Position numbers and translations under genes: made by a program. A DNA stretch of 22,934 nt from Triparma columacea. Lineage: Eukaryota; Sar; Bolidophyceae; Parmales; Triparmaceae. Shown one piece after another: positions 1,707 through 22,934 of the stretch (the first letter of the stretch is position 1; the number at the start of each line of letters is the position of its first letter). Below the pieces are notes generated by a model. That model did not search any database and had not been told where the DNA came from. It saw only the letters and a program-made list of their open reading frames with translations. The DNA is taken from assembly GCA_030267965.1 (NCBI GenBank), contig BRYA01000254.1, positions 37,093 through 60,026 on the forward strand. The letters are read 5' to 3'.

Positions 1707-3949
1707 ATGAATCCAGGCAGGGTCTCAGACGAAGCAAGTGCGGCTTCCGATAATCACAGATCCTTCCGCCGGAAGTCAATCGACAATGGCCTCGCGATGC
1801 CCTTAAATCGCGAAGACTACAAACACATCTCCATGAAGCAGTTAAGCAGCTTGAAGGGTTTCGTGAACCGGGTCGCCGAATCTTACATCGACCTCCTGAA
1901 GAGTTACAGCGGAAACGTCGAGGTTGGTGTTGGAGAGTTCTGTGACGAGGTGCTTCCAGAGGAAGAGGTACTGGCAAGGGAACTCCTCATTGACCTCGCT
2001 CCCAAGATTAAGCCGTCACTGAAGTTGGCGAGGATTGGACTCGGAGTGAGGATGCTGCTGTCTATGGTATTGACATACATGGACTTGATTACGGATTTCC
2101 TCGTGCTGAAGGAGTACGGAGAGGGAGGAGAAGGGATGAGGAAGTATCTTCACATTTCCATTGCGATCCTTGCCGTGTCCACGCTCGCGAATGTGCTTGC
2201 TGCATGGATCGCAAATAAGAGGAAGGGCGCGAAGGCCGTAGGGAAAGGGATATTTATTGCACTTTTACAGCTCAACCCACTTGTGCACGGCTTGAACGTG
2301 TGGAGGGGAGTGGAACAAAGTGAGGATGATGCAATGAACCCATTTATCATGTTCCTCATGGTAAGAATGGGCGAGCTTACATTCGAAGTGATGCCAGAGA
2401 CTGTCCTGCAGCTGTTTGTCATCTACCACACGAAGGATATCTCATGGACGTCAACAATCTCTATTTTAAGCAGTGTGGCGAGCGCCGCGTTCATCATGAC
2501 GGACAACAGCATGATGTTCGAGAGGGGACTGATGGTGAGTGTGAGAGGAGAGAAGGCGGTTCGATTCCCGATTTTACGCATCCCTTACACCGCATACTCG
2601 TGTTTTGCTTCACACAGAATGCTCAGAAACGTGGACCCTACACTCACCCCATTTATGGGTTCATCCCTTCACATGCACCCTACGCTGCCGCAATTCAATT
2701 CGGAATGTTCCTCTCTTACGGGGGATTCATCTCTTGTAGTATGATTGCCCTCTCTGCTGTGCTTACTGCTTTCAATTGGTATTACGTACCTCTCGTCATG
2801 GGTTGTGAGTTTGCGTTGTTTATAGGAGTATACGCAAGCAGGGGACAGCTGCTTAATGTCCTTGAGGCTCCCGGCAGTAAGATAGTCTCCTCTGTTGTCC
2901 ACGTTGCGTTCTACCTCATCATGTCTTTGTGTCCTTGGGTGCAACTTCGCGCTGATGATAGCCAACTCGGTGGTGGATGGTACTCGTCTATGATAGTTTA
3001 TAAACTTCTATCCAGCGCCGCAATCGTTATGTATGCGACGGGTCAGTTTGCAGAAATCGACAGTGGGACTAGGGAAGTCTTCATGGAGGGAAGAACCGTG
3101 AGATCAATGTTTTTCATAGCACTTGTCGTAACAATCGGTGGGGTAACGCTCTTCCTAACATACATTCAGCAGTCTCACCGATGGACCTTCTATGCCAGCA
3201 GAATGACAGGGCCAGAAATGTTTCAGTGGGCCTTTGATGCTACCCAACTTGGCGGTGATGCAGAAACGAAGGAACAGCAGAGAGTGTCGGTATGGCTGAA
3301 GGCCCACCCAAGCTACTCAGACCAAGACAAGGTGAAGGAGTGGCTTCTTGGGCTAAAGAGCGACGGTGAGATCCTTGGCGGCGTCGACAAGAAATTACCA
3401 AAAGGCTGCCATGAGTTCACAGGTCACTCCCTTGACACCTTCTTCGCCAAGAGCCTGGACCGCTACGCCTACTACAACGATACCGAGGGCTTCCTCCTAG
3501 TCGAGGCCCACCTCAACAAGCTGAAGGAGGAGGTTGAATCTCGCGCCCTCGTCGTCACAATAGAAGGGGCGACCATACGCAGCTCGACCAAAGGAAAGGA
3601 CAAGGAGGAGGACAAGGAGGAGGACAAGGAGGAGGACAAGGAGGAGGACAAGGAGGAGGACAAGGAGGAGGTGGGAAATGGGATGAAAGCCACCGACGAT
3701 GAGGAGATCCTTCGGTTGAAGGTTTTGCTTGAGTCAAAGGAGAAGGAGATGGAAGAGAAGAAGAGAGAAGCTGCAGAAGAGATGGAAGCGAGGGAGAGAG
3801 AAATTGCTGAAGAGAGGGAGGAGAACAGGGCCAAGTTCATGGCAAAGGAGAAGGAGATACAAGAGAGAGACGGAATTATACAAGAGAGAGACGAGAAAAT
3901 TGTGAGGTTGAAGGAGAGGATCGCGAAGTTGGAAGAGAGAGAAGGATAA
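1707..3949 (+). CDS. XKR-like multi-pass membrane protein with coiled-coil tail
   Basis: Exons 1707-2534 and 2618-3949 join in phase 0 to give 719 residues. ATG 1707 is the first after an in-frame TAA at 1668. A soluble head (about residues 1-105) is followed by several hydrophobic helices (about 108-465), a soluble linker, six DKEE units (about 603-627) and a charged coiled coil to the end. The membrane part matches the two membrane domains of the giant protein at 11042-22486. It also has the layout I know from XK-related scramblases: a DLITD helix (D126, D130), a later ExxxExxP motif (E223, E227, P230), then a Gln-Leu-rich helix and a Ser-rich helix. XKR proteins exchange phospholipids between membrane leaflets, and animal members mark dying cells. 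Unlike the giant protein, this one has no START-like domains. XKR membership is inferred from pattern, without a search; another multi-pass family is the alternative. Confidence 0.75.
2535..2617 (+). other. intron of the XKR-like gene (83 nt)
   Basis: It starts with GTGAGT after an ATG codon and ends in a T-rich tract plus CACACAG. It lies between codons and joins two overlapping open frames. In the aligned protein it falls just before the conserved stretch (Y-G-F-I-P here, Y-G-Y-V-P in the giant protein) that precedes the next hydrophobic helix. Confidence 0.85.
3599..3670 (+). repeat. 12-bp coding minisatellite, six units
   Basis: Six perfect tandem copies of GACAAGGAGGAG encode Asp-Lys-Glu-Glu six times. 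The perfect identity suggests recent expansion or active slippage. It separates the membrane-domain linker from the C-terminal coiled coil. Confidence 0.95.
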
Positions 3950-4131: not shown

Positions 4132-6842
4132 TCACTCGTCCACGTCCAACATAATCGTCTCTGCGTGAGCGCTGGAGAACGCCGTCCACTTGATGTGAGG
4201 GTTCGCATCAAAATCCGCGAAGTGTCTTGCGTACATCCTAAGGTGAGCGGGATCGAATGCGGCGGAGCGAATTTGTGTGGGGTGAGCCATGGTGTGGAGT
4301 GAGCGATTATGAAATGTTGAGAATAGGTCGTTGGTTTCGTCCATCCTCACCTCGTCCTCCCGGATACCCCCCCAGTATACGAGGTTCCGTTCAACCTCGC
4401 GGCGCCATATTCGCCGATCTGGAAGTCCTCCTTCTCCTTCTTCTTCCTCTTACTTAGCTCCCTCTCCTCCTTCTCCCTAGTCGCGGGGGTAGTGTTGCGG
4501 GGGTAGTGTTAAAAGTAGCGATGTGGCGGGGGGGGGGGGGGGGTTCGACCACTCTCACCTCTTCCTCCTCTCCTGCGCCTTCCTCTCCTCGATCTTGCGC
4601 ATCTCCGTTTTGACCTGTGCGGACTCCCTCTGGGCTTGGTTCTTGCACTTCGAGGGGTCACGTACGTAGCAGACGTCCTCGTAATGACCACGCTTTTTAC
4701 AGTAGTCGCAGAACATCTGGATAAAAGGCGGTGGGGGACGCCCCAGTGTGAGATTATGTCAAGATCGTTGTCGCATCTTCCTCGTCGAACATTTCACTCG
4801 CTCGCTTACCTCGCGCCTCTGGATTGAAGCAACGGCGGAATTGGACGTCCCTATCCAACCCCCCCCCGTGACGTACTCGGAGAGCGACGGGTTGAGGCTC
4901 TGAACCGTCATGTAGCCCCCCACGTAACCAGGGTCGTGCATGGCCTTGGGCTTGTGGTTGTCCCACGCCTCCCTGGTGTTCGGGGCCTGCGGCTTCGGGC
5001 CAAGCTTCAGACCGGTCGACTCCTGCAGGAGGGAAGAGGGAGTCGCGGCGGAACTGTGGGTCACGCTGCAGAGGAAGTGCTTGCGGATGTAGGAGGGACG
5101 GGAGAGGGAGAGGATCTTGCGGTCGCGGATTATCTCGATGATGACGCCATTTTGGATGACGTCCTCATCCGTCAGGATGTCAGGGATCTAGGGGGGAGGG
5201 GGGGGTTGGCAAAAAGTGTGTGTGTATGAGTGTGTGAACGTGTGTGAACGTGTGTTTCACGTGTGCTTACGTGTCGTCGCCCCCCCCCCCCCCCCTCTCA
5301 CCTCATTAAGAACCTGTTCGAGCGTCCCTGCCTCCTCGTCCGTGATGTCGAGAGTATCGAAGCTGACGATCATATCCCCAACCTCGATCCCGGCCTTCTC
5401 TGCGTTGCTAAGGATCTTGTCTTTTACAACGTCTCTGTCCTCGGGTGCGTCAAAGGCGCTGACAGTGACTGATTCGAAGACAGTCGCAATGTCCCCTCTT
5501 TTCTTGGTTGCGGAGGCGGCGACGATGTTAGTCTCGAGTTTTTCTTCCCTGACGGCAGTGACCAAGTTGTCGATAGCTGGAGCTACCGATGCTGCCAAGG
5601 TGTCCGATTCCGCGGTGGTGCTGTCTCCCCCATCTTCGTCCTTGACCTCGACCTTGATGATGTCGTACTTGGCTTTTATAGTTATCTCGAACTTGACTTC
5701 CAGGCCGGCCAACTTCCGCCACACCTGAGGTACTATCACAGGCACTGTGTGCGTGCGCGTGTGTGTGTCGGGCACCAAGTCGGCGACGCTGATAATCTTG
5801 ACGTTGATGTCACCATCGCGCAACTTTTTAGAAAAGTGGCCGCTCTCTCTCTGCAATCTCTCTCTCTCTCTCTGCAATTCCGCCGCAGGCAACAAACCCT
5901 GAAACACGGGCAGTTGATCAGGATGCTGCTGCTGTGCCGGATGAAGGCTCGCTAGGATACCGGTTTTGAGTACATCGACGAAAGTAGTGAAAGTCTCGAA
6001 GTCAGCGACAAAATTAGAGAAGAGATCGACATCAGCGACACCAGCGACATCGGGGACCTGGAGGTTTTTCAGAGTGACGGCCGCTGAGATGGTACTAACG
6101 TACGGTTTGTCATGTTTGACCTCGAGGACGACGGCGAAGGGGGGAAGATTGGAGTCGGTGACCTCGGAGGACCAGGGGACGTTGACAAACTCGGGTGGGA
6201 GGAGGGTGGAGGCCAGGTTGAGGCCGGTTACGTCCTCGAAGGCATTGAGTGAGTCAAAGACACTGGTGGTGGGCAAGGTTAGGTTGATGGTCTTGACGTT
6301 TAGGTCGGTGACTACGAACATCCCGGATAAGTGGAGGTCAGGGTCGGCGGTGAAGACGTTGCATAGGAGTTTGGAGCCGGGGGGGTTTGAGAAGAGCATG
6401 GAGGTGAGTACTGAAAGGTAAGTGGAGAAGATGTTGGGGCGGGAGGATGAACCCTCGTGGAGCGTTCCCAACTAGGGGGGGGGGGGGGAGGGTTAATTAT
6501 GTTGTCGAGCTAAGGGAAGCATACGCTGTTGACACTTTTAACAATGGAGCGTCTCACCTCCCTCTCCCAACCCTCCTCGTCGATGGTGTTCACCGTGATT
6601 GCTACAATCACGTCCTTCGGTTTGAGGCCAGAAGTAGATGAAGGGGAATTCTTGCGAACAGATACCACACGGGCGAAAGGCTCTGGGTATACAGGGAGGT
6701 CAGAAAGGTGTGAAAAGGTGGAGGCCTCACTTGAAGAAGAGGTGTGACTAGAGGAGGAAGTGGAAGAGGTCATAGAGGTGGTCGACATGGCATCGAAGTT
6801 GTCCTCGTGTGTATCGCTGCCATCGATTCTGTCAATATCCAT
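4132..6842 (-). CDS. PDZ-like and CCHC zinc-knuckle protein, six exons
   Basis: Exons 6842-6558, 6471-5302, 5187-4810, 4716-4559, 4476-4351 and 4237-4132 give 2223 nt (740 residues), with every phase matching. A Ser/Thr-rich head (about residues 19-42) precedes a PDZ-like segment (from about 51 to 137, with a glycine-led GLKPKDVIVAI strand). A second PDZ-like segment spans the exon 2/3 junction (about 425-515, GIEVGDMIVSF, then VIIEIIRDRKILSL). Between them are long beta-rich stretches that I do not recognise and an Arg/Glu coiled region. Exon 4 opens with a CX2CX4HX4C zinc knuckle (C614, C617, H622, C627), then a Lys/Glu-rich helix. PDZ domains bind C-terminal peptides and CCHC knuckles usually bind nucleic acid, so a scaffold or adaptor is likely. 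The short last exons are the least certain; the gene could instead stop at the in-frame TGA that opens intron 4 or intron 5. Confidence 0.65.
4238..4350 (-). other. intron 5 of the PDZ/zinc-knuckle gene (113 nt)
   Basis: Donor AG/GTGAGG, acceptor CCTTAG, phase 2. It joins exon 5 to a last exon of 34 whole codons. An in-frame TGA would end the protein if it is retained, so this junction is less certain than the others. Confidence 0.5.
4477..4558 (-). other. intron 4 of the PDZ/zinc-knuckle gene (82 nt)
   Basis: Donor AG/GTGAGA, acceptor CTAG, phase 2; splicing restores an Arg codon and continues a Lys/Glu-rich helix. It holds a 16-base homopolymer (4528-4543) and a perfect 14-bp tandem duplication (4483-4496 and 4497-4510) where the branch point should lie. 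If the intron is not spliced, its first bases give an in-frame TGA. Confidence 0.6.
4717..4809 (-). other. intron 3 of the PDZ/zinc-knuckle gene (93 nt)
   Basis: Donor GTAAGC after GAG, acceptor TCCAG directly before ATG-TTC-TGC, phase 0. It is the only coding-region intron in the window with a GTAAG-type donor. The zinc knuckle starts two residues after the junction. Confidence 0.7.
5188..5301 (-). other. intron 2 of the PDZ/zinc-knuckle gene (114 nt)
   Basis: Donor GTGAGA, acceptor CTAG, phase 0. It holds a 16-base homopolymer (5280-5295) just inside the donor, an alternating GT/AC stretch (5216-5277) and a C-rich acceptor tract. The junction lies inside the second PDZ-like segment. Confidence 0.75.
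5216..5277. repeat. GT-rich microsatellite inside an intron
   Basis: An imperfect run of GTGTGT units broken by GAAC and CACG, directly next to a 16-base C run (5280-5295). It lies wholly inside intron 2 of the PDZ/zinc-knuckle gene. Confidence 0.85.
5845..5878. repeat. CT microsatellite inside coding sequence
   Basis: CTCTCT runs around two CTCTGCAAT copies encode, on the minus strand, the alternating Arg-Glu of the PDZ/zinc-knuckle protein (a Leu-Gln-Arg-Glu-Arg-Glu pattern). It is short, imperfect and in frame. Confidence 0.8.
6472..6557 (-). other. intron 1 of the PDZ/zinc-knuckle gene (86 nt)
   Basis: Donor GTGAGA, acceptor CTAG, phase 0. The tract before the acceptor is an almost pure C run (14 C on the minus strand, 6488-6475). 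A TTAAC branch-point candidate lies just upstream of it. Confidence 0.75.
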
Positions 6843-7639: not shown

Positions 7640-9717
7640 ATGAACTTCAAAGATGGCGCATCCCCTCATCGTCTCCCCAAACATATATCTCTTCTCCTCT
7701 TTTTAAATGGTTTCCTCCAAGCCCTCGTCCAACCCTCCTTAACCTCCCTCCTCACCCTCTCCCCTATGGCCGTTGACCTCTCCAAGCTCTCCGTCGTCTA
7801 CTCCCTCCTCTACATCCCCTATCTGTGCAAACCTACCTACGCGCGGTTGCTAAACTACCTCGAGAAGCGAGTCGGGTCCCCCTTGATATCAACCCTCCTT
7901 CCCCAAACCTACCTCTTCCAAGCCCTCACACTGCTCCTGCTGACGACGGTCGTTGACCTGGAGGGCGATGGGGGGCTCCTCTACTTCACGGCGATTAACT
8001 GGGCGAGGGAACTCAGCTTGGCGGTGGGGGATTGGATGCTCACAATTGCCGTCATTAGGTTCTTAAGAGGTGAGGGGAGAATAAAGCACGACTGGCAATG
8101 ACAGAAAGAAATGGTCGGAGGGGAAGGAACGAGAGCGTTTGTTAAGTTTTGGGACACAGAGCCTCACCCCTCTTCCCCCCACCCCCCACTCCGAATCAGG
8201 CTCCCAAAACTGTACGACATCTTCGATAAACGTGTCAATGGCGGAGTCCTCGCGGCTCCGCTCCCTCGGCTCCTTCGTCGGCTCCCTCCTCACCCTCCTC
8301 GTCTACGCAATACTCGGGGACGATGGAAGCAACGGTGTGCCCAAGGGGGTCATGGTCCTGTGCTTCGTAATAGCGGCCGCCTGCAGCGGGGGAGGGGCGG
8401 TCGTCGTCATGAGGGACTATAGAGATAGAAGGCAAACAGAGGAAGGGGGGGCGACGAGGTGAGGAGGGAGGGTTGAACGAATGTAGAATGATTCGACACG
8501 AGCACAAGACAAAAACAACTCACACACACACACATCCCCTATTACAATGCCCCCGCAGCATGTTGAAGGAAGGAGGTGAGAATGGACGAAATGATTAAGT
8601 GAACTGAAAAATGAAGTAAAGCCCAACGAGAAGGCGATCAGGAACCCACCCACCTAACACACACCTCCCCTACTCGCTCGTCTCAGGCACTCCAGCGCAA
8701 CATTCTGGCGTACCCCTTGCAAGGAAAAGCGCGCAGTACAAGGTCGTGTACCTTCAGGCCCTCCTCCTACTAACCTTGGTCCCAGGTTACCCAATTTGGC
8801 TCACTGGCGTCCTCATCCTCCCCCTTCTAGCCTCTACCGACCGCTCCGACGCCAACATCCTCGCTTACAACATAGCCCCGAACCTAGGCTACGCCGCCAC
8901 GGGGGTCATCTACCAGGTGTACCAGGACAACGTGTGGTTCCTCCTCGTCACCCCCTGCCTAGGAATGCTCGTCTCCACAGCGGGGGCACATTTCTACAAG
9001 GCGTCCACAGCCAAGTCGGTTAAAGCTCTGTGGGCACTCCTGGCTGTGGCCACGTTGGTGGACTGCACCGCGGGGGAGGGGGTGGGGTACACAAGGGCAA
9101 TAGGGACCTATTGTCTCAATGCGACAGCCACGGCGGGGGGGGGGGAAGGGGGGTGCGAGGATGACTGCTACGGTGGGGAATGCGGGAGAGAGGCGGAGAC
9201 GGCGTATGCGTGGGTTGGGGGGATGGTTTGGACGGCGGTTAAGGGGGCAACCGCGGAGGTTGCTTTCCTGCCTGTGCTTGCGCTGGCGACTAGGAGGATT
9301 AACGATGAAGAGGGGAGGGCAAGGGGGGGGGGGGAGGAGGATAGAGGAGAACAAGACAACAACGCTCTCATCAACCGCCAATCGCAAGATGCTTCAGATG
9401 TCTATAAGTACACCATATCCTACACCCTCACAGTGGACGTGGGGAACGTGATATCTGACCTCCTCACGCCCCTCTACATCTCGCAACTTTGCGCCGCTAT
9501 GGGGGGGACGGAGGAGACAGTAAATCCCGTAGACTACATTGCATGGGGGTTGGTGGGAATGATGGCCTACAAAATTGCCGTATGCTGCTGGGGGTACTAC
9601 AGGGCATGGGCTTACGACAAAATGGGAGAGAGGGGGAGAGTAGAAGTGACGACAGGAAAGGAGACGAAAGGGGGGAGAAAGGAGGAGGAAGAGGAAGCTG
9701 GGCTAATGGTGGGATAA
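7640..9717 (+). CDS. multi-pass transporter-like protein (MFS, possibly BT1 type)
   Basis: Exons 7640-8069, 8200-8458, 8559-8575 and 8687-9717 give 1737 nt (578 residues) with all phases matching (1, 2, 1). ATG 7640 sits right before the first hydrophobic helix. There are about ten hydrophobic segments. The first helix pair is followed by a loop with a KPTY motif (in IPYLCKPTYARLL), comparable to the W-x-x-KPxYG loop of folate-biopterin transporters, then an alanine/serine segment where that family has its E-x-A-x-x-E-S loop. A Gly/Glu/Cys-rich loop near 9130-9190 lies between late helices, and the tail is Lys/Glu-rich. If BT1-like, it would move folates, pterins or related solutes across a plasma or plastid membrane. 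Membrane transporter is well supported; BT1 membership is a tentative reading, and the substrate is unknown. Confidence 0.6.
8070..8199 (+). other. intron 1 of the transporter-like gene (130 nt)
   Basis: Donor AGAG/GTGAGG, acceptor AATCAG, phase 1. A C-rich tract (about 8165-8190) precedes the acceptor. Splicing joins the hydrophobic exon 1 frame to a different open frame without a stop. Confidence 0.75.
8459..8558 (+). other. intron 2 of the transporter-like gene (100 nt)
   Basis: Donor ACGAG/GTGAGG, acceptor CCCCCGCAG, phase 2. It contains a (CA)n run at about 8519-8533. Retention would give an in-frame TGA at once. Confidence 0.6.
8559..8575 (+). other. 17-nt microexon of the transporter-like gene
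   Basis: CATGTTGAAGGAAGGAG sits between a strong acceptor (CCCCCGCAG) and a donor (GTGAGA) identical to others here. It accepts phase 2 and leaves phase 1, which is exactly the shift needed to join exon 2 to the canonical acceptor CTCAG at 8686. It adds about six residues (Ser, Met, Leu, Lys, Glu, Gly). The alternative is to skip it and use a weaker GCAAG acceptor near 8724, which also keeps the frame. Confidence 0.6.
8576..8686 (+). other. intron 3 of the transporter-like gene (111 nt)
   Basis: Donor GGAG/GTGAGA, acceptor CGTCTCAG, phase 1. The acceptor is preceded by a C/T-rich tract (about 8661-8684). The exon that follows runs openly to the TAA at 9715-9717. Confidence 0.6.
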
Positions 9718-11041: not shown

Positions 11042-14000
11042 ATGGACATGAGACCACCATCTCCTGCAAATGGTGATCCTGTGCCTACTCCTGCGTCACC
11101 TACTCCTGCGCCTACGCTTGCGCCTGCGCCTGCGCCTACGCTTGCGCCTGCGCCTACTCCTGCACCTACGCTTGCGCCTGCGCCTACTCCTGCGCCTACG
11201 CTTGCGCCTGCGCCTACTCCTGCGCCTACGCTTGCGCCTGCGCCTACTCCTGCACCTACGCTTGCGCCTGCGCCTACTCCTGCGCCTACGCTTGCGCCTG
11301 CGCCTACTCCTGCGCCTACGCTTGCGCCTGCGCCTGCGCCTACGCCTACGCTTGCGCCTGCGCCTACTCCTGCGCCTACGCTTGCGCCTGCGCCTACTCC
11401 TGCGCCTACGCTTGCGCCTGCGCCTACTCCTGCGCCTACGCTTGCGCCTGCGCCTACTCCTGCGCCTACGCTTGCGCCTGCGCCTACGCTTGCGCCTGCG
11501 CCTACGCCTACGCTTGCGCCTGCGCCTACGCTTGCGCCTACGCTTGCGCCTGCGCCTATGCTCGCGCCTGCGCCTACGCTTGCGCTTATGGCAAGCGCTC
11601 CTTCTTTCCTAAGTGATCCTCCTTCTTCTGCAAGCGACCATCTTCCATCTCAATGTGGCCCAGACAATGAGGAGCAGTACGCGCTTATCCACAATGAGAT
11701 CTACGATGCTTTAGTTTTTAGAGGCGCAGTGGAAGGGCAGCTCGACCTTTCTAAGAATGACATTGTCAAGGAATTGAAGCAGGGCACATTCATCCACAAT
11801 TCACCTGACAAGGTGCTGAATTTCCTTCTCGAAGAATGTGCAGTTGGAGTGTGGCACAGGCACATCCTAGACCCCCTAGAGGAGGAGGGGGGCACAAAGC
11901 TAGCGTTTTGGCGGCACTACCTCGGGGACAAGGTAGTGGAATATGTCTTCACATTAGAAACAACTCACGACCTTTACAATCAGGCCCACACCATCACATT
12001 CACGTCCATCAGGGACAAGGATTTAACCAGTGTGGCTATGAAGAAACTTACGAACCAAGACCAAATTGGGAAGAAGGCCAGCAGGAGGGCTAGACTCGAA
12101 GGAAAACTGTATCTTGAAGCAGCTCAGTACGGTCAGACCAGGCTTGTCCTTACTGGAAAGTTTCGAGCAGAAGAGACGACCTTCTCTGCTGGAAAGAAAT
12201 TGGACATAAATTTCCTTTATTCCTCCCTCAAGGGTATAATTGGCGAGATCGAGAAAAACTTCCACAAGCCCGGCGTTATAGACGAGAGAAGGAAAAGGCA
12301 CTTTGTGGAGGAGGTTATGCCTAGTTTGCCTCCACTAACAGTAGAGGAGGAAAGCATGCTGGAAGGAGTTCGAGGGTTGGAGAATGAGCTCTATAAGAAG
12401 GGAAAGAGAGTCAAGAGAACATTGAAGGAGGGCATTGACAAGTTCCTGTGGAGAGAGGGGGAAAATGTGTGGGCAGCCTTCGGGGTCACTGTGGACAAGT
12501 CAGCAGAGGGTATGCTGGCTGAGCTAAGTTTAGGCGACACTTACACTTATGCAAGAACCCATCGGAAGGAGAACGGCAATCTGCCTAGGGTTATTAGAAA
12601 TAACTTCAATGGAACTAGAAGTCGCCATCAACACCAAGGAAAACACTTGCCTGGTCCAGGAAAAGACCGCTTATTTGAAGCCTGGTTTACGTGGAAGGAA
12701 ATTAAGTTGAGCAGTGGCAGGGCAGCCTACTTGTTGGGGTTTGTGCCGCTGACAGAGTTCCCAGGAGGAGGCTTCAAGGACCTCAGTAAGGAAGGATTTG
12801 AGCTGGCAGAGACTACAGGTGCCTACTTCTTCTACGAGATTGCCCCAAATGTCTGTAGGGTGACACGTATTCAGACAGTTGATCTGCATTTCCAAGGCCT
12901 TCAAAAGACACTGATGGACAATGCCATTGACTACCTTGCAAAGAGTCAGCTTGTTGAGGCCAACAGGTTGCAGGAGAAGTTCAGGAGGAATGAGAAGAAG
13001 GTTGATGCTGAGGTCAGGGGGGCCTTGGTGGAGAGGATGAGGGAGGGAGTTGAGCTGGAGAAAGACCAGGAGAAGGTCTTCAAGGACCTGGGTGATCTCT
13101 TTGATGGGGAGGAAGGAGGGTGGAAGCCTCTTGAGTCACCTTATGAGGGAGTGAAGATGGAGATCAAGTACAGTCAGCAGAAGAAGGGTGAGAGGAGCAT
13201 TGCACTCGGGAGAGCTTATGGAAATGCAGACTGTACAGCAGAGGAGGCAGCTGCTTGGTTCTTTGAGTACTGCAGCAGGGAGAGAACTACCAAGGGACTT
13301 GCAACAGGAGAGCTTGCTCGTCTAGAGATCAGGGAAGGGACTGAGAGGACCAATGAGAAGAAGTTTGCAACAGTGAAGAAATTCCCTTTTCCGATTACTA
13401 ACAGAGAATTTGTCCAGAGGTTAATTTGGAGGAGACACAACACTGACTGTGTCACTGTGGCTGTGTGGTCAATTGCCAAGAAAGTTGATTATGGAGGATT
13501 AGGAAACCTAGTAAGAGGCACAACAAAGGCAATATTCACAATCACCAACACCCAGGAAATCAATGGCTTTCCGCAATGCAAGATTGAGCTAATGCAACAT
13601 GTTGATGCCGGAGGTTATCTACCTGCAAAGTTGGTGGAAAAACAAACACCAAAGGTATTGAGGGTTTTGAAGAGTGCAATTCAAAGCTTCGAAAAAGACA
13701 AAGAGTTTGATAAAGTTGCACTGGCCTCTCTTGCCAACATCATCAAGAATGAACACCAAGATTATACAGATAAGGAGAAGGATGCAATCAGGAAGGGGAA
13801 GGAGCTCTATGAAAAGTGCAAGGTGGATGAGAATTTTGATGATCTGAAGAGCCCTGATGAGAGGGTCAAGATGAAGCTAGTTCATGTCGATGGGGCAAGC
13901 AGTGGGACTGGTTTTGCCACTACTGTAGTTGACGCTAGTGTGGAGGAGTGTGCTGCGCATGAATTTTATTTTGATTCTAGAGAATTCCGTAAAACTTCAA

Positions 14001-17000
14001 AGGAGCGAGGGATCACAGAGTACCACATCAAAAACTCCAATGGTCACACCTGCTTCTTCATCTCTACAAGGGAACTTGGCATCCCTGGGCTTTTTCCTCG
14101 TGATGGTCGGAGTAAAATTACCTGGTTCAAGCAAGATGACGGCAAAGTTATCATTGATGTTAGAGACACCGAAGAAGTACACAAAGACTACCCTGTGAAG
14201 ACTAGGAATGTTTTAGTGAAGGCACACACAGTATGGGTATTTGAGCCATTAGACTCTATTGGAAGTGTGCCACAAACATCAGTGACCTTCATAACAAAGG
14301 TAGATCTTGGTGGTGTCTTCTACTCTTCTATCATGAACAAGCTTGCACCAAGGTTTCTTGCACAAGTCTCAGACTTGAGAAAGAAGTTTGACAAGAGTAA
14401 GGAAATCGACAAAGCAAGCAGGAAAAAGCTAGTTGAAAAGATGAATGAGCTTGCTACCGTTGGAAGTGAGACTGTTGCCAAAAGGCTTGAGGAGGTCAAT
14501 GGAGCTGAGAAGATAAAAGGGAAAAACACTAGGGTGAAAGCTCAAGGGGGGGAGGGGTGGGGAAAAAGTGTTGTAACTGTGAAGGCAGGCCTTGAGGAAA
14601 CAGCTGCTTTCTTCTGGGATGTCACTAGCCGTTTTTGGGTAGAAAAGGGAAGGATTGTCGAGATTTTAAGGAGAGAAGGATTTGAGATGGTTGTGAAGAG
14701 ACTTGAAAAGTTAGAAAGTAAGCTTGGGGGAATTCACCATACCCGGGAGTTCTTGTCCAAGATGGAGCTTGTGAGGGTTGATAATAACACTCTTGTGATG
14801 ACAGTTGAGCCTAAAGAAGGAGAGGAAGAGGTGCAAAGAAGAAGATCAAGAAAACGTTCTTTATTAAAATCAACTACCAATGCGACTGAGTCTACTACTG
14901 TGAGGTTCACAAAGGTTGGAGAGAAAGACACGAAGGTAGAATTAGTGACAAATTTGTCTCTGGGAGGAAATGTGAGCAAGGGTGCAACCACTGAAGTGTT
15001 GGAGAAGTATCTAGCTCAAAACACTACAGCATCTTACTACTTCAACAACCTGCAAAGCTCCTCTGAGATGACAGAAGAAGACGGCAAGATTGCGGCAGAG
15101 GAGTTGATGATGAGGGTGAAGGATAGGGAGAAGGGAGAGACAAAAGCAAAAGCTGTGAAAGATGTCATTGCTGCAAACAATGCACTAAGGGAGCTTGTTG
15201 AGAAGTACAGTTTCTGTTCACCGCTTTTGTGTGCAGTTGTTGAAAATAAGCTACACCCAATGGTGAAGGTGGGAGGAAAGGCTGAATGCTTGGAGAAAAA
15301 GGAGGGAAGGGATATTGGTTCAAGTTTGGCCATAACGTTAGCAACTACTCTAACTGCAACTCATGGGGTGGATGAGTGGGTGCATCAGTATCCTTCATTA
15401 AGGCAGCTAATGAAGGAGTATATTTGGCTGAGGCCACTGTTTGAGGCAATAGGGTACACGCTGGTGGGGGAAGTAAGGTGGGGTGTCAAGGCTAGGGTGA
15501 TTGTTGGGGCAGCCACGAGCATGCTTGACTTGCTGACTGATGTGTATGTTACACTCATGTTTAGGAAAGATAATGAAAAACAAGGGTACTTTTGGGCTTC
15601 ACTGGCAAGTTTAGCAGTGTCAATGGGATTCCAGTTTTTTTTGGTTTGGATTAATAACAGGAAGTTGGGGATGAAGAAAGTGCTGAGGGAATGGTTTCCG
15701 GTAATGATTGGTTTCAAACCAGCGTTGGACGCATTTAGAATTGCCACAGGAGAGAAGGAAGAGGTTGGACATGTTGTTGACCCAATGGTAGAAATGACTT
15801 ACATGAAGGGCATTGAGATGTTTGCAGAAGCAATCCCTGCAGTGATTATTCAATTAATGGCCATTGCAACAACAATCCAGGAAAAAGACATTGCTAATTC
15901 AGCATGGATTTCACTGGTAGTTTCAATTCTTTCTACAGGGTTCATTTCAGCAACAATCAGTTATGACTGGGATACAAACCCAGAAAGGCGACAACAAGCA
16001 CCAGACTTCTACGGCTACGTGCCTGCACTTGCCAGCAAGAGGACAATAGTATTTGCATCAATGCTTTTAGTGTCATCAGGGTTGCTGTTGACCAGATGTA
16101 CAACAATTGTACTGTTGGGCCTGTTGGGGAAGAGATGGGCCTTTGCCTACATTGGGGCAGACCTTGGTCTGTATTTAGCCATCAAATTTTTGAGAGGTGA
16201 TTTCTGGTATTGGATACCAATGGGAAGTTACGCAGAAGAAGTAGCAATGAGTCTTTTTGAAGGAGTTCTAGTCAAGATTGTGACAGACTTCACCTCCATT
16301 GTTCACTTTAGACACCCATATGAAATTGGTGGTGCATACTGGGTATTCAGTTTAGTGTTGACGATGGGGAGTCTTCCATATGCAATAATGGCAGCTGAAC
16401 ATGTAGAAGAAGCAAAAAGAGGTGTAGAGATAGCGTGGACAGTTTTGTGGTATGTTATACCTTTTACTGTAATTTCCTTTGTTGTCTTCTTCTTCAACAT
16501 TGAGCTGCAATATTGGAACACCTTCTTCAGTTTACAGAGAGGAAAGGACTATACATTAAAGAACTTTAGAGAAGGGAAGGATGAAGCTACAAGAGCTGCA
16601 TTTACATTCCAGATGTCAAAACACCACTGGAAGTCAATTGAAGAGGAAGTGCGAGGCTGGGTTGAGACCAACTGGGAGAGGTGGCAAGAAGAAGAGCCAA
16701 ATTGGCTAGACGAGGCAATGAGGGCAAGGATACCATTAGAATACATTCCTACTGCCACAGCTAGGCAGCAAGAGAAAGAGAGAAGAGGGTTAGTTGTAAA
16801 CACCAGTACAAAAAAGAGGGTGAAACCTGTACGCCCAGAGCAAGACATGTTAGATCAATTCCCTTCAGACAAAACAAATTTAGAGAATCCCACCATCGCT
16901 GACACTAACCTCAGACAGAAAGAGATAGCAAAGCTAATGGCTGCTGTCCGCAAAAGAAGATACAACAAGAAGGCGACCAAGGAAGCCACTACAAGATTTA

Positions 17001-20000
17001 TTGCAAAGTTGGAAGAAAGAGGTGCAGTGGAAGGTCTATTTCACTACTCTCAGGACAATCATGACTTGAAAACCGAACTAGGTTTAGTTTTGCACCATAA
17101 TCCAGAAGAAGTCCTCAACTTTTTACTTAGTGACATCAAGGAGGGAGACTTCACGAGGCAAACCATTCAAACAAGCAAAAAAGGCACAAGGATTGTGCTA
17201 TGGAAGCAAACACAGGGACGGAAAATCTCAGCTGAATTCCTCATGAACATTATGGTGACCAAAAACACAGACGACTCAAAATATACCATCCAAATTAGAC
17301 AAGTCAAAGATGTAGATCTAGCAGAAAGTGTAGCAGGCAAGTCAAATAATCCGAGAGGAATGGTGGAAGGTCACATCAGATTAGCTGATTTCGAACTTGG
17401 GCAAACAGCTCTGACCTTTGCAGGAAATATTACAGTATTGCTTGGAAAGAAAAAAGGACTAGGAGCACCTGAAAGCAAGACAAATGTAGCTCAGTCTGTG
17501 ACTACAATAGCTAGTAAGACAAAAAGCAACCTTCCAAAGAAAGTATCTACCATGAAACCTAGGAATTCCTTCCTTCCTACCCTAACCCCAAAATCTAGCA
17601 GCATAGAAAAAATAAACCAGGAAAGAATTGAAATTGTCAAGGCCTTCAAGTGCATTTTTGGTGAGATTGGGAAACACTTCCACAAGCCTGGCGTTATTGA
17701 TGAGAGGAGGAAGAAGCACTTTGTGGAGGAGGTCATGCTGAGGGCACCGCCTCTGACAAGAGAGGAGGAGGAAATGTTGGAGAGGGTTGGGAGGCTAGAG
17801 AAGGAACTTCACACAAAGGGGAAGAGAGTCAAGGGGACATTGAAGGAGGGGATGGACAAGTTCCTGTGGAGAGAGGGTCACAAGGTGTGGGCAGCCTTTG
17901 GGGTCACTGTGGACAAGTCAGCAGAGGCTGTGTTGGCAGAACAATCAATGTTTGACACATATGAGGCTTCCGCCATTCATTTCAGCGATAACAAAAATTT
18001 ACCAAGGGCTGTAAGGGAAAACGTGGATGGAAGTAGGAGCTTTCAAGTCTATAGAGGAATTCACTTGCCTAGTCCAGCAAAAGACCGTCTGTTCGAAGCC
18101 TGGTTTACTTGGAAGGAAATTAAGTTGAGCAGTGGCAGGGCAGCCTACTTGTTGGGGTTTGTGCCACTGACAGAGTACCCAGGAGGAGGCTTCAAGGACC
18201 TCAGTAAGGAAGGATTTGTGCTAGCAGAGACTACAGGTGTCTACTTCTTCAATGAGATTGCTCCAAATGTCTGTAGGGTGACACGCATTCAGACCGTTGA
18301 CCTACAGTTTACAGGCCTGCTTCAAAATGCAATGATGGACAATGCAATTGACTACCTTGCAAAGAGTCAGCTTATTGAGGCCAACAGGTTGCAGGAGAAG
18401 TTTAGGAGGAATGGGAAGAAGGTTGGTGCTGAAGTCAGGGGGGCCTTGGTGGAGAGGATGAGGGAAGGGGTTAAAATGGAGGAGGACCAGAAGAAGGTGT
18501 TTAGGGAGTTGGAGGAGCTCTTTGGTGGTGAGGGGAAAGGAGGGTGGGGGCCTCTTGAGTCACCTTATAAGGGAGTGAAGATGGAGATCAAGTACAAGCA
18601 GCAGGAGAAAGGAAAAAAGACACTTGGTTTCGGAAGAGCTGAGTGTATCTCTGACTGCTCAGCCGAGGAAGCAGTTGCTTGGTTCTTTGAGTACTGCAGC
18701 AGGGAGAGGATGCTTAAGAGCAGAGAGAGAGGGGAGCCTGCAAGACTTGAGATAAGGATGGAAGGACAGGGAAGGATCAATGAGAAGCTATTTGCAGTAG
18801 TAACGAAACTTCCCTTCCCCTTTCGGAAAAGAGAGGCCATCATGAGATATGTTTGGCAAAAGGGACACCAAGACGGCAAGATGTCATTGGTATTTGTCCC
18901 AGCAGAGGAGAAGGTGGACTATGGAGGAAAATTTGGAAAGCTTGTGCTTGCAAGAACAAGTGGCATTCTCACTGCCAAGAATATTGAGGACCATAATGGT
19001 GTTCTCCAGTGTAAACTTACATTGACACAATTTATGGACACAGGGGGGCATATTCCAGTCAAAATTGTCGACAGATCTACTCCACGAGTACTAAGTACAA
19101 TAGCAGCACTCAGGGATTCCTTCAAGCGGGATGAAGAGGTTGATAAGTTTGCACTGGCCTCTCTTGCCAACATTATAAAGAATGAGACCCAATATTATAC
19201 CGATAAGGAGAAGGATGCAATCAGCAAGGGGAAAGAGTTTTATAAAAAGTGCAAGGAGGGAAATTTTGATGATTTGAAGAGTCCTGATGAGAGGGTCAAG
19301 ATGAAGCTAGTTCATGTTGATGGGGCAAGCAGTGGGACTGCTTTTGCCACTACTGTAGTTGATACTAGTGTGGAGGAGTGTGCTGCGCATGAGTTTTATT
19401 TTGATTCAAGAGAATTCCGTAAAACTTCAAAGGAGAGAGGGATCACAGAGTACCACATCAAAAACTCCAATGGTCACACCTGCTTCTTCATCTCTACAAG
19501 GGAATTTGGCATCCCAGGACTTGCTCCTCGTGATGGAAGGAATAAAATTACCTGGTACAAGCAAGATGATGGCAAAGTTATCATTGATGTTACAGACACA
19601 GAAGAATTTCAGGCAGACTTTCCAGTAAAGGCTGGGAATGTGTTAACAAAGGCACACACAGTATGGGTGTTTGAGCCACTTGGCACTATTGGAGGTGTGC
19701 CACAAACATCAGTGACTTTCACAACAAAAGCGGACCTTGGTGGTGTTTTCTACTCTTCTATCATGAACAAGATTGCACCAAGGTATCTTGCACAAGTCTC
19801 AGACTTGAGGAAGAAGTTTAATAGAAGCAGAGCTATTGACGCTTCAACAAGGATCCAGATAGTAAGTGGAATAGGTGAAATCAAAAAAATGTCCACTGAG
19901 ACATTTGATGCTAAATTCCTTGAGGTTGAAGGCAAACAAAAGGTTGAAGGTGCATTCCCCCTGTCAGATACCTGCATTAAGGTAGAAAAGAAGGGAAAGG

Positions 20001-22486
20001 GGTGGGGAAAGACAACAGTGACAGTTACAGCTGATTTGGAGGAAGCTGCTGCCTACTTCTGGGACTTTGAGAGCAGAGTCCATCAAGAAACAACAGGAGA
20101 TATTGAGAGGGTTGTTGAGGAGAAGAAGGGGACATGGGAAGTGGTTGTGAGAAGAAGGAAGAAGTTGGCGTCAGTAAGTGGTGGGGGGCATAGAGATAGG
20201 GAGTTCTGGAATGTGATGATGCTGCACAAGATGGATGAAAATACTATTGTGATTATAATAGAGCCAATAATGGAGAATATGGAGAGAAGTGATGCTGTGA
20301 GCAACACTGAGAGAAGTGCCGCACAAAGTTTATCTGGATTATTGAGAAGTACTGCACAAAGTGCTGTGAGCAAAACTAAGAGAAGTGCTGCACGAAGGGC
20401 ATCTGAAGAAGTCGCAATAAAGTTCACAAAAAAAGGAGAGAAGACAACCAAGGTAGAATTTGTCACCAAGGTAGAGCTTGGTAGCTCTGTGAGTGTGGAG
20501 GCAACAAAAGCAACTCTGGAGAGGCACCTAGACGAGGCTGCTGAGGCACAAAGATACTTTATCGACCTTGTCCCTTTAATGGAGATGTCTAAGCAAGTTG
20601 GCGAGGCCTTGGGTGCTGATTTGGTTTGGGATGGAGGACAACTTGGAGGAGCAAACTCAAGGAAGGACAGGGAGAGATATGTCAAGGAGGTTTGTAATGA
20701 GAATGTCGCTTTGAGAGAGGTTGTCAAGAAGTACCCTTGGTTTGTGACTTTGCTGAAGAGGGCAAGGCTTTGTGAGTTTAGCTCCAACAGCTCAGTGTCT
20801 ACCAAGCTTGAGTGTGTTGAGGAGAAGGAGGCAAGGGTGATTGGAAACAACTTGATGCCTTGTTTGAAGAGCAGGAAGGTGATAAAGGCTGGGGTAGATA
20901 TGTGGAAATTGCAGAACAGGGCTGTTGGGGAGCTGTTTGAGGAGTTTCAATGGATGGAGGGTATGTTTGTTGAGATAGGGAAGGGAGTTGTGAAGGCTGC
21001 ACCGTGGGGTCTCATGTTTCGAGTTGCTGTTGGTGCTGTTACATCTATCTTTGATTTGCTTACTGATGTGTATGTGACGTACATGTTTTGGAGTGATAAG
21101 AAGTATGGGTACTTTAAGGCATCTTTGGCAAGTTTGATGGTATCAATGGGGATTCAGATGCTTGTAGTTTGGGCACAGAACAGGAATTTGGGGATGGTGA
21201 GGGTGGTTAGGGAGTGGTTTCCTATTTTGATTGGCTTTAAGCCTGCTGTTGATGCTTACAGGGTTGCAAAGGGAGAAAAGCAAGAGGTTGGGCATGCTGT
21301 TGATCCAATGCACGAGTTGACTGTCATGAAAGTGATTGAGATGTTTGCTGAAGCCATACCAGGAGTGATTATCCAACTTATGGCTATTGCAACAAATAAA
21401 AAAGACGTTGCGGATGCAGCTTGGGTCTCACTTTCAGTTTCAGCATTGACAACAGGATATGCATCTGCAACTATCAGTTATGACTTTGATACTGACCCAG
21501 TGAAGAGATTACAAGTGCCTGACTTCTATGGTTATGCGCCTGCGAATCCCACAAAGAGATCTATCATATTTGTTGCAATGATGTTCTTTAGCGCATGTAT
21601 GCTTGTGATAAGGTGCATGACAATAGTTGTGTTGGGGCAACTTAGTGGTAGATGGGTCTCTCTCTATGTTGGTGCTGACCTTGGTCTGTATTTATTGGTG
21701 AAGATATTAAGAGGAGACTTTTGGTATTGGATGCCTGTTGGTGGTAAGACAGAAATAGTGTTTAGTATTGTCAACAGAGTGTTGGTGAAAGTTGTGACAG
21801 ACTTTACATCAATTGTGCAGTTTAGGCATCCTAATGAGGTTGGAGGGATATATTGGATGTTTGGATTTGTGTTGACAATGGGAAGTCTTCCAGTAGCTAT
21901 AATTATAGCTGAAAGGGGAGGTGTTGCAGACAAAGGGCTTTTATTTGCATGGAAAGTAGTAAGATCAGTTATACCATGTACAGTTGTGTTGTTTGCTGTA
22001 TTTTTCTTTAACATCGAGAAAAAATACTGGGGCACCTTCTACAGCTTACAGAAGGGTAAGGAATTGACAATGAAAGGGTTTAGAGAAGGAAAAGATGACG
22101 GAATAAAGGCTGCACACATGGCTATGTCAAAGCATCACTGGAAAGCAATTGAAGAAGAAGTGAAAGCTTGGGTGGAGGAAAATTGGGATAGATGGGAAGA
22201 GGAGAAACCAGACTGGTTTGATGAAGCAATGAGAGCTAGCGTGCCAGTTGAATACATTCCAGGAGCAGGAAATGCTAGAATGAGAGAGAGTGTTAGGAGA
22301 GCAAGTGTTGATGCTGAAGCTGAGGGTGGTCTAGCAGGTGCTTTGGGAGCAAGTGTTAGAAGAGCAAGTTTTGGAGGCGCTGATGGTGTGGATATTATAG
22401 GGGTAGGAGGTGGGAAGGCTAAAGTAAACAATGTTGTGCCGGTTAAAGATGAAGAAGAGAAAGAAGGCAAAGTGATTGAAATGTGA
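11042..22486 (+). CDS. giant tandem (START-like x5 + XKR-like) x2 membrane protein
   Basis: One uninterrupted frame of 3814 residues. A Pro/Ala/Thr decapeptide repeat (17-183) is followed by two homologous modules. Module A has START/SRPBCC-like domains at about 220-420, 463-673, 696-917, 934-1143 and 1162-1348, then an XKR-like membrane domain at 1480-1825 (D1496, D1500; E1592, E1596, P1599) and a Trp-rich tail. Module B repeats this order at about 1983-2230, 2270-2480, 2505-2725, 2743-2947, 2975-3187 and 3322-3664 (D3338, D3342; E3433, E3437, P3440). Several of the soluble units end in a long amphipathic helix followed by a basic/Phe and then Asp-containing stretch, for example [15 protein letters not shown], as in START arrays that I recall from stramenopile algae. 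START domains hold a lipid in a hydrophobic groove; XKR proteins scramble phospholipids. I infer coupled lipid capture and leaflet exchange at a membrane. Domain families are assigned by eye; the joint function is hypothetical. Confidence 0.75.
11090..11590 (+). repeat. 30-bp coding minisatellite, Pro-Ala-Thr decapeptides
   Basis: A tandem array with a 30-bp unit (GCGCCTACGCTTGCGCCTGC core) encodes [14 protein letters not shown] decapeptides. The central part (about 11150-11470) keeps the period almost exactly; the ends are shorter variants. Two copies carry GCACCT instead of GCGCCT, marking sub-blocks. The peptide should be extended and disordered. Copy number may differ between strains, and assembly here may be imprecise. 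Confidence 0.95.
11700..16750 (+). repeat. internal module A of the giant gene
   Basis: This is the first copy of a duplicated segment of about 5.4-5.5 kb; the second copy is at 16980-22255. Equivalent points are 12430 and 17850 (offset 5420), 13861 and 19291 (offset 5430), and 15479 and 21005 (offset 5526). Similarity is uneven: 13861-14100 differs from its partner at only 12 of 240 bases, while the first membrane helix differs at about 16 of 60. Confidence 0.9.
16980..22255 (+). repeat. internal module B of the giant gene
   Basis: This is the second copy of the module at 11700-16750, with the same domain order. It has segments that module A lacks or has in another form: a Ser/Thr/Lys-rich insertion at 17460-17620 inside the first START-like unit, and a Ser/Arg/Ala-rich insertion at 20280-20410 inside the fifth. 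The linker between modules (about 16750-16980) is polar and basic. Confidence 0.9.
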
Positions 22487-22627
22487 ACAAACAGCGTTCA
22501 CAAATAGATCAGAAAATAGTTAAAAAACATAAAATGATAAGAAGGATCAACAGGAAAAATAGTTAGAACACATTAGAAAGATGGAGGAGAAAAACTAGAG
22601 AGTTCAATTTTGTATTGAAAAAAATGA

Positions 22628-22633
22628 AATAAA
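22628..22633 (+). terminator. AATAAA polyadenylation signal candidate
   Basis: A perfect AATAAA lies 142 nt after the stop codon of the giant gene, with a T-rich and then G-rich sequence downstream (TTTTGTTGGATGTGGG), which fits a cleavage site plus GU-rich element. Confidence 0.5.
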
Positions 22634-22845
22634 TTTTAGAGTATAAGAGTTTTGTTGGATGTGGGGGTGGGAGACTGAGGGTTAAGGAAGGGGGTTTGTG
22701 GGGAGAGTATTGTGTAGGTAAGGGGAAGGGGAAAAAAAAAGGAGGAGTGAGGCTGATTGGGGTTCATGCAGATGTTTTGCAGGGAGGTACAGCGTTAAGA
22801 GAGAGTGTATTTTGGTTTATGGTTAAAATCTAATAGGGAAGACAG

Positions 22846-22866
22846 GGTAACCCTAAGGTTGTTACC
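22846..22866. repeat. short inverted repeat GGTAAC...GTTACC
   Basis: Six-base perfect arms (22846-22851 and 22861-22866) flank a nine-base loop. It lies 14 bp before the first of two larger palindromes. Confidence 0.6.
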
Positions 22867-22879
22867 AAATTTGCCCCAT

Positions 22880-22900
22880 ATTTCTCAGATTCTGAGAAAT
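22880..22900. repeat. palindrome with ATTTCTCAG arms, first copy
   Basis: Nine-base perfect arms ATTTCTCAG and CTGAGAAAT around a three-base centre. The same arms recur at 22911-22930, 31 bp further on. Confidence 0.85.
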
Positions 22901-22910
22901 CCAGCCTAAT

Positions 22911-22930
22911 ATTTCTCAGGCCTGAGAAAT
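22911..22930. repeat. perfect 20-bp palindrome, second copy
   Basis: ATTTCTCAGGCCTGAGAAAT is its own reverse complement and uses the same nine-base arms as the palindrome at 22880-22900. The window ends four bases later, so further copies may follow. Confidence 0.9.
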
Positions 22931-22934
22931 ACAG

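Follow-up and report, generated by a model that had tools for sequence, protein, structure and literature searches.

Giant START- and XKR-type genes concentrated next to telomeres in the alga Triparma columacea, with START units that appear to reassort between copies

The subject of this study is a giant intronless gene near the end of contig C248 of the Triparma columacea (Parmales) assembly (GenBank GCA_030267965.1, contig BRYA01000254.1), found within a stretch of 22,934 nucleotides (hereafter the window), and the gene family to which it belongs. The frame runs for 3814 codons without a stop (11042..22486, forward strand, as are all parts of the gene given below) and comprises two halves, A and B, each made of five START-type units followed by one XKR-type membrane domain, confirming what a preliminary description of the sequence had claimed. 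The halves align from end to end (residues 227-1918 against 1993-3756) at 55% identity. Copies of the gene are concentrated next to telomeres, and sequence comparisons indicate that each of START units 2-4 has followed a path of its own, separate also from that of the remaining gene, whereas unit 1, unit 5 and the XKR-type domain share a history. We lean, albeit slightly, towards regarding these genes as a telomere-borne family of START-XKR lipid carriers with a scramblase-like module and exchangeable lipid-binding cores; our confidence in the anatomy alone is far higher than that in the whole of this reading.

The assembly searched comprised 37.85 Mb in 789 contigs, the published version being given as 43.0 Mbp in 1858 scaffolds (PMC10328945), and small scaffolds may be missing from it. 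A degenerate XKR-domain motif had 474 exact matches in the genome, as opposed to none for its reversed control, and 580 first-look candidates yielded 112 matches to the XKR family PF09815 among the 119 scored. Among the 100 motif matches listed (contigs C1-C128), 97 were located no more than 10 kb from the contig end to which they point. These 100 matches occupy 64 ends of 55 contigs, nine of which carry copies at both ends; if the listed contigs are typical, the 474 matches would correspond to ~313 ends. The three internal matches (C8:38835, C61:30941 and C62:39151) are candidate chromosome-internal relatives or founders of the family. A wider tally, including a few XKR frames outside the family, gave 163 places on 134 ends. 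On contigs of known size, five of these places were nearer to the end behind them, four being on contigs of 10-14 kb and the fifth (C470:4815) being a 640-aa frame that probably does not belong to the family; C133:39666 (241 aa) lies 14 kb from its contig end. Had the contigs simply broken off at a repeat, copies in either orientation would be expected; the single polarity thus favours true subtelomeres.

Telomere repeats point in the same direction. In contigs C1-C70 (140 ends assumed; a telomere being an exact (TTAGGG)4 match near the end), 12 of the 16 telomere-bearing ends had a copy, compared to 23 of the 124 other ends (Fisher's test, p = 1e-5). Telomere repeats were present at six of the 11 ends inspected, and in five of them the last frame, which in C106 is a second, shifted frame, stops 324-1289 bp short of the repeats. 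At the right end of C422 the frame runs straight into the repeats, as though a chromosome break near the gene end had been capped. Counting against this picture, telomere repeats are absent from the window's own contig end: C248 finishes 448 bp past the stop codon (22487..22934), and this stretch contains no TTAGGG tract.

These numbers could also be explained if the gene were a hitch-hiker, spreading mainly through subtelomere recombination, with its mosaic structure a by-product and the role of the protein small. The very high copy number at the ends, the several broken copies and the C422 frame running into a telomere tract would suit this explanation. Nevertheless, we consider it unlikely, as (i) both halves are under protein-level constraint, with ratios of non-synonymous to synonymous divergence (dN/dS) of 0.22-0.39, albeit with roughly every second comparison having a dS above 1, (ii) 99 of the 112 PF09815 matches reside in frames of at least 1400 codons, and (iii) a homologue in T. 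laevis keeps the same order, five START-type units plus one XKR-type domain, at 32% identity.

To compare individual units, the stretches of 26 contigs, C248 included, were pieced together; 15 of the other 25 and the whole window frame, chosen for their long open frames, were used downstream, and the ten contigs left out were mostly incomplete stretches. Unit comparisons covered 23 halves of T. columacea and dS by unit covered ten A halves (36 or 45 pairs), leaving aside any pair in which too few residues aligned; C422 was included without units 1 and 2, since the sequence upstream of its stops was dropped, and half B of C107 without its XKR-type domain. The identity matrices over the 23 halves correlated at 0.70 between units 1 and 5, 0.85 between unit 5 and the XKR-type domain, and 0.68 between unit 1 and the XKR-type domain, whereas those of units 2, 3 and 4 correlated with every other unit at -0.15 to 0.11. 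The tree of unit 3 was random as to gene class (A or B), requiring 20 changes against a shuffled mean of 19.0, with 167 of 200 shuffles as low. Among the ten A genes, dS was 2.1 in the unit 3 core and 1.8 in the unit 4 core, near saturation (proportion of synonymous differences, pS, ~0.7), as opposed to 0.17 in unit 5 and 0.32 in the XKR-type domain; a conserved stretch before unit 3 had a dS of 0.25. Amino acid identity in segments of 20 residues was 30-59% in the cores of units 3 and 4 and 63-90% in the flanks, and pN/pS was 0.30-0.54 across all regions. Because synonymous divergence is high together with non-synonymous divergence, the cores are probably old and exchanged (or unequally converted) between copies. 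Local positive selection was ruled out as the cause of the variable cores, the synonymous sites being near saturation there too. The unit correlations, the trees and the contrast in dS thus suggest sequence exchange between copies, as expected of a subtelomeric family.

Several observations make this picture less clear-cut. The linkage of unit 1, unit 5 and the XKR-type domain partly reflects the A and B classes, and within class the correlations drop to 0.59 (units 1 and 5), 0.75 (unit 5 and XKR) and 0.36 (unit 1 and XKR); the other unit pairs there correlate at -0.26 to 0.21. The contrast in dS is graded, with values of 0.46 in unit 1, 0.91 in unit 2 and 0.79 in the flank between units 3 and 4. 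Finally, copies have exact stretches of up to 163 nt in common, and a short-read assembly could make some chimeras. The assembly is indeed of the Illumina/Platanus type (PMC10328945), and the longest exact stretches between copies have a median of 75 nt and reach at least 100 nt in 26 of 120 pairs, so that the entire unit mosaic might be put down to an assembler switching between paralogues. This possibility is highly improbable in our opinion. Random switching would also destroy the linkage of unit 1, unit 5 and the XKR-type domain, which is seen across the reassorting units and, though weaker, within class as well. In addition, cores of the same type still differ, the unit 3 type of window half A being 82-88% identical between copies.

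The preliminary description called the two halves duplicated in tandem, which does not hold as a recent event: dS between A and B is ~1.2, and the trees of the XKR-type domain and unit 5 are at odds with recent duplication. The A halves form one clade in both trees (support of 100/99 for the XKR-type domain, whose bootstrap had not settled, and 98/98 for unit 5), while the B halves mix with stand-alone genes. Half B is 68-72% identical to four of six stand-alone single-array genes (C503, C228, C320 and C641), compared to 55% to half A; the remaining two, C360 and C126, are 49-51% identical to half B and 56-57% to half A. In each of the ten A arrays inspected, the array continues into a B-type unit 1. 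It is likely, judging from these comparisons, that an A-type and a B-type gene, being old paralogues, were joined in frame once and the product then spread.

The resemblance of half B to stand-alone genes would equally be expected if transcription or processing split the frame between the halves, such that the ten-unit protein never exists. Many double copies are in fact broken, several of them in half B: in C371 and C106 the frame ends inside B unit 1 or directly behind it, in C107 and C717 it is interrupted in half B, and C422 has two TAA stops in half A (C620 runs off its contig, and C619 was fetched incompletely). The gene models of T. columacea were built from protein hints only, with no RNA-seq (PMC10328945), and at least one of them, TrCOL_g12708, is truncated, with 1510 aa that match at 100% over residues 1-1493 inside a frame of 2488 aa. 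However, the halves are joined without a stop or frame break in the window, C84 and C147, whose double copies are intact through the second XKR-type domain, and every one of the ten A arrays proceeds into a B unit, which makes two separate genes a very unlikely explanation. A layout with two XKR-type domains, which the preliminary description suggested could act as a built-in dimer, is itself common. Among the matches listed, 27 of 33 spacings between XKR motifs are 1.76-1.87 kb, which is too small for a second five-unit array between the two domains, and three are of the ~5.4 kb kind found in the window; C422 and C503 have a short unit-5-like stretch between their close XKR-type domains.

The assignment of both domain types to one frame is supported by Pfam matches in sister frames and half B and by predicted structures. 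START (PF01852) scored above its cut-off in the sister frames C602, C166, C147 and C620, as well as in the proteins P0017 and P0008. In half A, predicted structures delimit START-type units 1 (residues 232-428; 11735..12325), 2 (465-668; 12434..13045), 3 (695-903; 13124..13750), 4 (933-1134; 13838..14443) and 5 (1163-1336; 14528..15049), the cores of units 3 and 4 being those that appear to reassort and unit 5 that whose history is linked to the XKR-type domain. The helix-grip fold, by which the preliminary description proposed to judge its START units, is present in the predicted structure of the five-unit array. The best structural rows for unit 4 (VIA-align, with good coverage for units 4 and 5 only) are the lipid-transfer START domains of CERT and STARD4/STARD5, to which the predicted helix-grip fold likens the unit; these solved domains are single START domains, in contrast to the window protein, which has five consecutive units in each half and cores that appear to reassort. 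In half B, alignment to half A places unit 1 at about residues 1998-2234 (17033..17743) and units 2-5 at approximately 17852..18463, 18548..19183, 19271..19873 and 19958..20566.

The XKR-type domains occupy residues 1475-1920 in half A (15464..16801), delimited by identity to half B and hydropathy, and 3315-3757 in half B (20984..22312). They are 56-64% identical, and hydropathy peaks above 1.6 are confined to these two regions in residues 200-3814. The half B domain matches PF09815 at residues 3328-3610 (30.8 bits, E = 1.9e-7, cut-off 24.8, profile positions 3-284 of 337), and the top five VIA rows for its structural model, which is weak, are XKR4, XKR9 and XKR8. The window protein differs from these proteins in that its XKR-type modules are placed after START arrays. 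To our knowledge, animal XK-related proteins carry no START array.

The domain assignments are not uniformly strong. The whole window protein has no START match at E ≤ 1 in Pfam, nor do units 2 and 4 alone, and unit 3 is below the cut-off (20.3 bits, E = 3.8e-4, cut-off 22). The XKR fragment of half A alone does not match PF09815, and in the T. laevis homologue P0017 START is above but XKR below the cut-off (13.9 bits). The XKR model is poor, with a predicted local distance difference test score (pLDDT) of 51.7, a Foldseek E-value of 0.18 for XKR9 and root-mean-square deviations of 8.6-11.2 for the XKR rows. Searches of PDB gave little: the whole sequence had only three matches, all within the low-complexity N-terminal repeat, the XKR fragment alone had two rows at E > 1, neither of them an XKR, and the profile searches returned none for the XKR alignment and one weak row for START (3qsz, E = 0.32). 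A scan of NCBIfam gave no match at E ≤ 0.1.

If the family indeed carries lipids, the START cups would take up lipids and deliver them to the scramblase-like domain. A fixed membrane coupling module may be formed by unit 5 together with the XKR-type domain, and units 2-4 may serve as exchangeable cassettes for lipid specificity that recombination or gene conversion carries from one chromosome end to another. Such a model would follow the proposed pairing of VPS13A with XK, in which lipid transfer by a cytosolic protein is combined with an XK-family scramblase (PMC9436381), but within one chain and with cups replacing the bridge. The likeness is one of functional logic, a lipid-transfer protein plus an XK scramblase, which is a prediction for the window protein; VPS13A and XK are two proteins, and VPS13A is a bridge-like protein with a chorein motif, whereas the window protein has START cups. 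Pfam gave only three families at E ≤ 1 for the whole protein, none of them chorein-type, and we accordingly do not place the protein among the VPS13/chorein-type bridges. Lipid cargo, differences in specificity, scrambling and coupling are all properties that we infer for START-XKR proteins. Alternatively, the START cups would serve for sensing rather than carrying, with the XKR-type module opened or closed by a bound lipid or small hydrophobic molecule, and the ligands would differ from copy to copy as the cups vary. The shared history of unit 5 and the XKR-type domain (r = 0.85) would suit a gate beside a channel, and rows for PYL2/PYL3, which are helix-grip abscisic-acid receptors, are also in the fold list. 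As the strongest fold rows are nevertheless lipid-transfer START domains (CERT and STARD4/5), we regard such a repertoire of ligand-gated scramblases as somewhat unlikely and keep to the lipid-carrier reading.

The preliminary description knew of no described protein joining START arrays to XK-related scramblases, and we likewise found no such fusion in the open-licence literature, albeit absence there is not absence from print. Among ~5.8 billion proteins, searched as proteins of limited length sharing exact words with the query (7988, 7990 and 4299 candidates scored), relatives were found only in T. columacea, in T. laevis (one protein, with the same 5+1 order) and among metagenome and ENA proteins. 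When viral contigs and prokaryote genomes were scanned with patterns, 37 and 212 stretches matched, respectively, none of which was confirmed as a relative, and this speaks against an origin from a virus or a bacterial contaminant. Ban et al. (2023) list START among the most enriched domains of Parmales and give multi-domain examples such as transporters (PMC10328945). The main text of that paper does not contain 'XK-related', 'Xkr', 'scramblase', 'telomer' or 'subtelomer', and a START-XKR example may stand in its figures or supplements.

The open-licence literature yielded nothing joining Triparma with telomeres, and among its papers listed for subtelomeric families of diatoms and for telomere-associated mosaic families of algae none dealt with the present family; by title, its papers combining subtelomeric genes with the START domain and lipids all concern malaria parasites. 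The nearest precedent is Fam-A of Plasmodium, a START-domain multigene family that is mostly subtelomeric and of which several members transfer phosphatidylcholine in vitro (PMC5113031). Fam-A proteins are ~300 aa long, mostly with one START domain, and are encoded in six exons in a parasite, in contrast to the intronless giants with five or ten units plus XKR-type domains in an alga.

The familiar examples of recombining gene families at telomeres come from coat-changing parasites, and a telomeric family of lipid-binding type in a free-living picoalga related to the diatoms would broaden the range of purposes that such families serve. It is attractive to speculate, although we hold this only tentatively and think it doubtful, that a free-living alga keeps a combinatorial telomeric repertoire, in which hundreds of scramblase-anchored START arrays swap cores and each copy has its own lipid specificity. 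If this is the case, the repertoire would be akin to antigen diversification in parasites but aimed at membrane lipids, with possible roles in the recognition of prey, viruses, mates or self, or in lipid uptake. Scramblases are commonly regarded as partners of lipid transfer proteins, and with domains of both types in one chain their coupling could be tested in a single polypeptide. Units 2-4, reassorting against a fixed unit 5 and XKR-type domain, would offer a natural map of candidate specificity and membrane-coupling parts.

The N-terminus of the giant protein, rich in Pro, Ala, Thr and Leu, is encoded by an in-frame 30-bp minisatellite (11099..11585). The same start is found in C107, C147 and C371, and is absent from C84, C620 and C717. 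The window also contains a second XKR-type gene (1707-3949, forward strand), located ~7 kb upstream of the giant one and consisting of two overlapping frames, the first of which matches PF09815 (E = 1.1e-6), with no START match; its second frame includes a 12-bp tandem repeat of ~6 perfect copies (3597-3671). Between the two genes, frames at 7640-9717 (forward strand) appear, on visual inspection, to be hydrophobic and multi-pass, with no Pfam match at E ≤ 1, and a frame at 5257-6471 (reverse strand) has a weak PDZ-domain match (PF17820, E = 9.5e-5, below its cut-off).

Two contigs, C70 (75484 bp) and C364 (64824 bp), carry telomere repeats at both ends and thus resemble whole chromosomes, just 65-75 kb long. 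The words 'telomer' and 'chromosome' do not occur in the main text of either genome paper. The N50 values reported for Triparma, 73-83 kb in four assemblies and 63.5 kb for T. columacea (PMC10328945), would be compatible with a genome divided into hundreds of mini-chromosomes. At the left ends of C107 and C228, a TTTACACCC repeat, perhaps a subtelomeric satellite, takes the place of TTAGGG.
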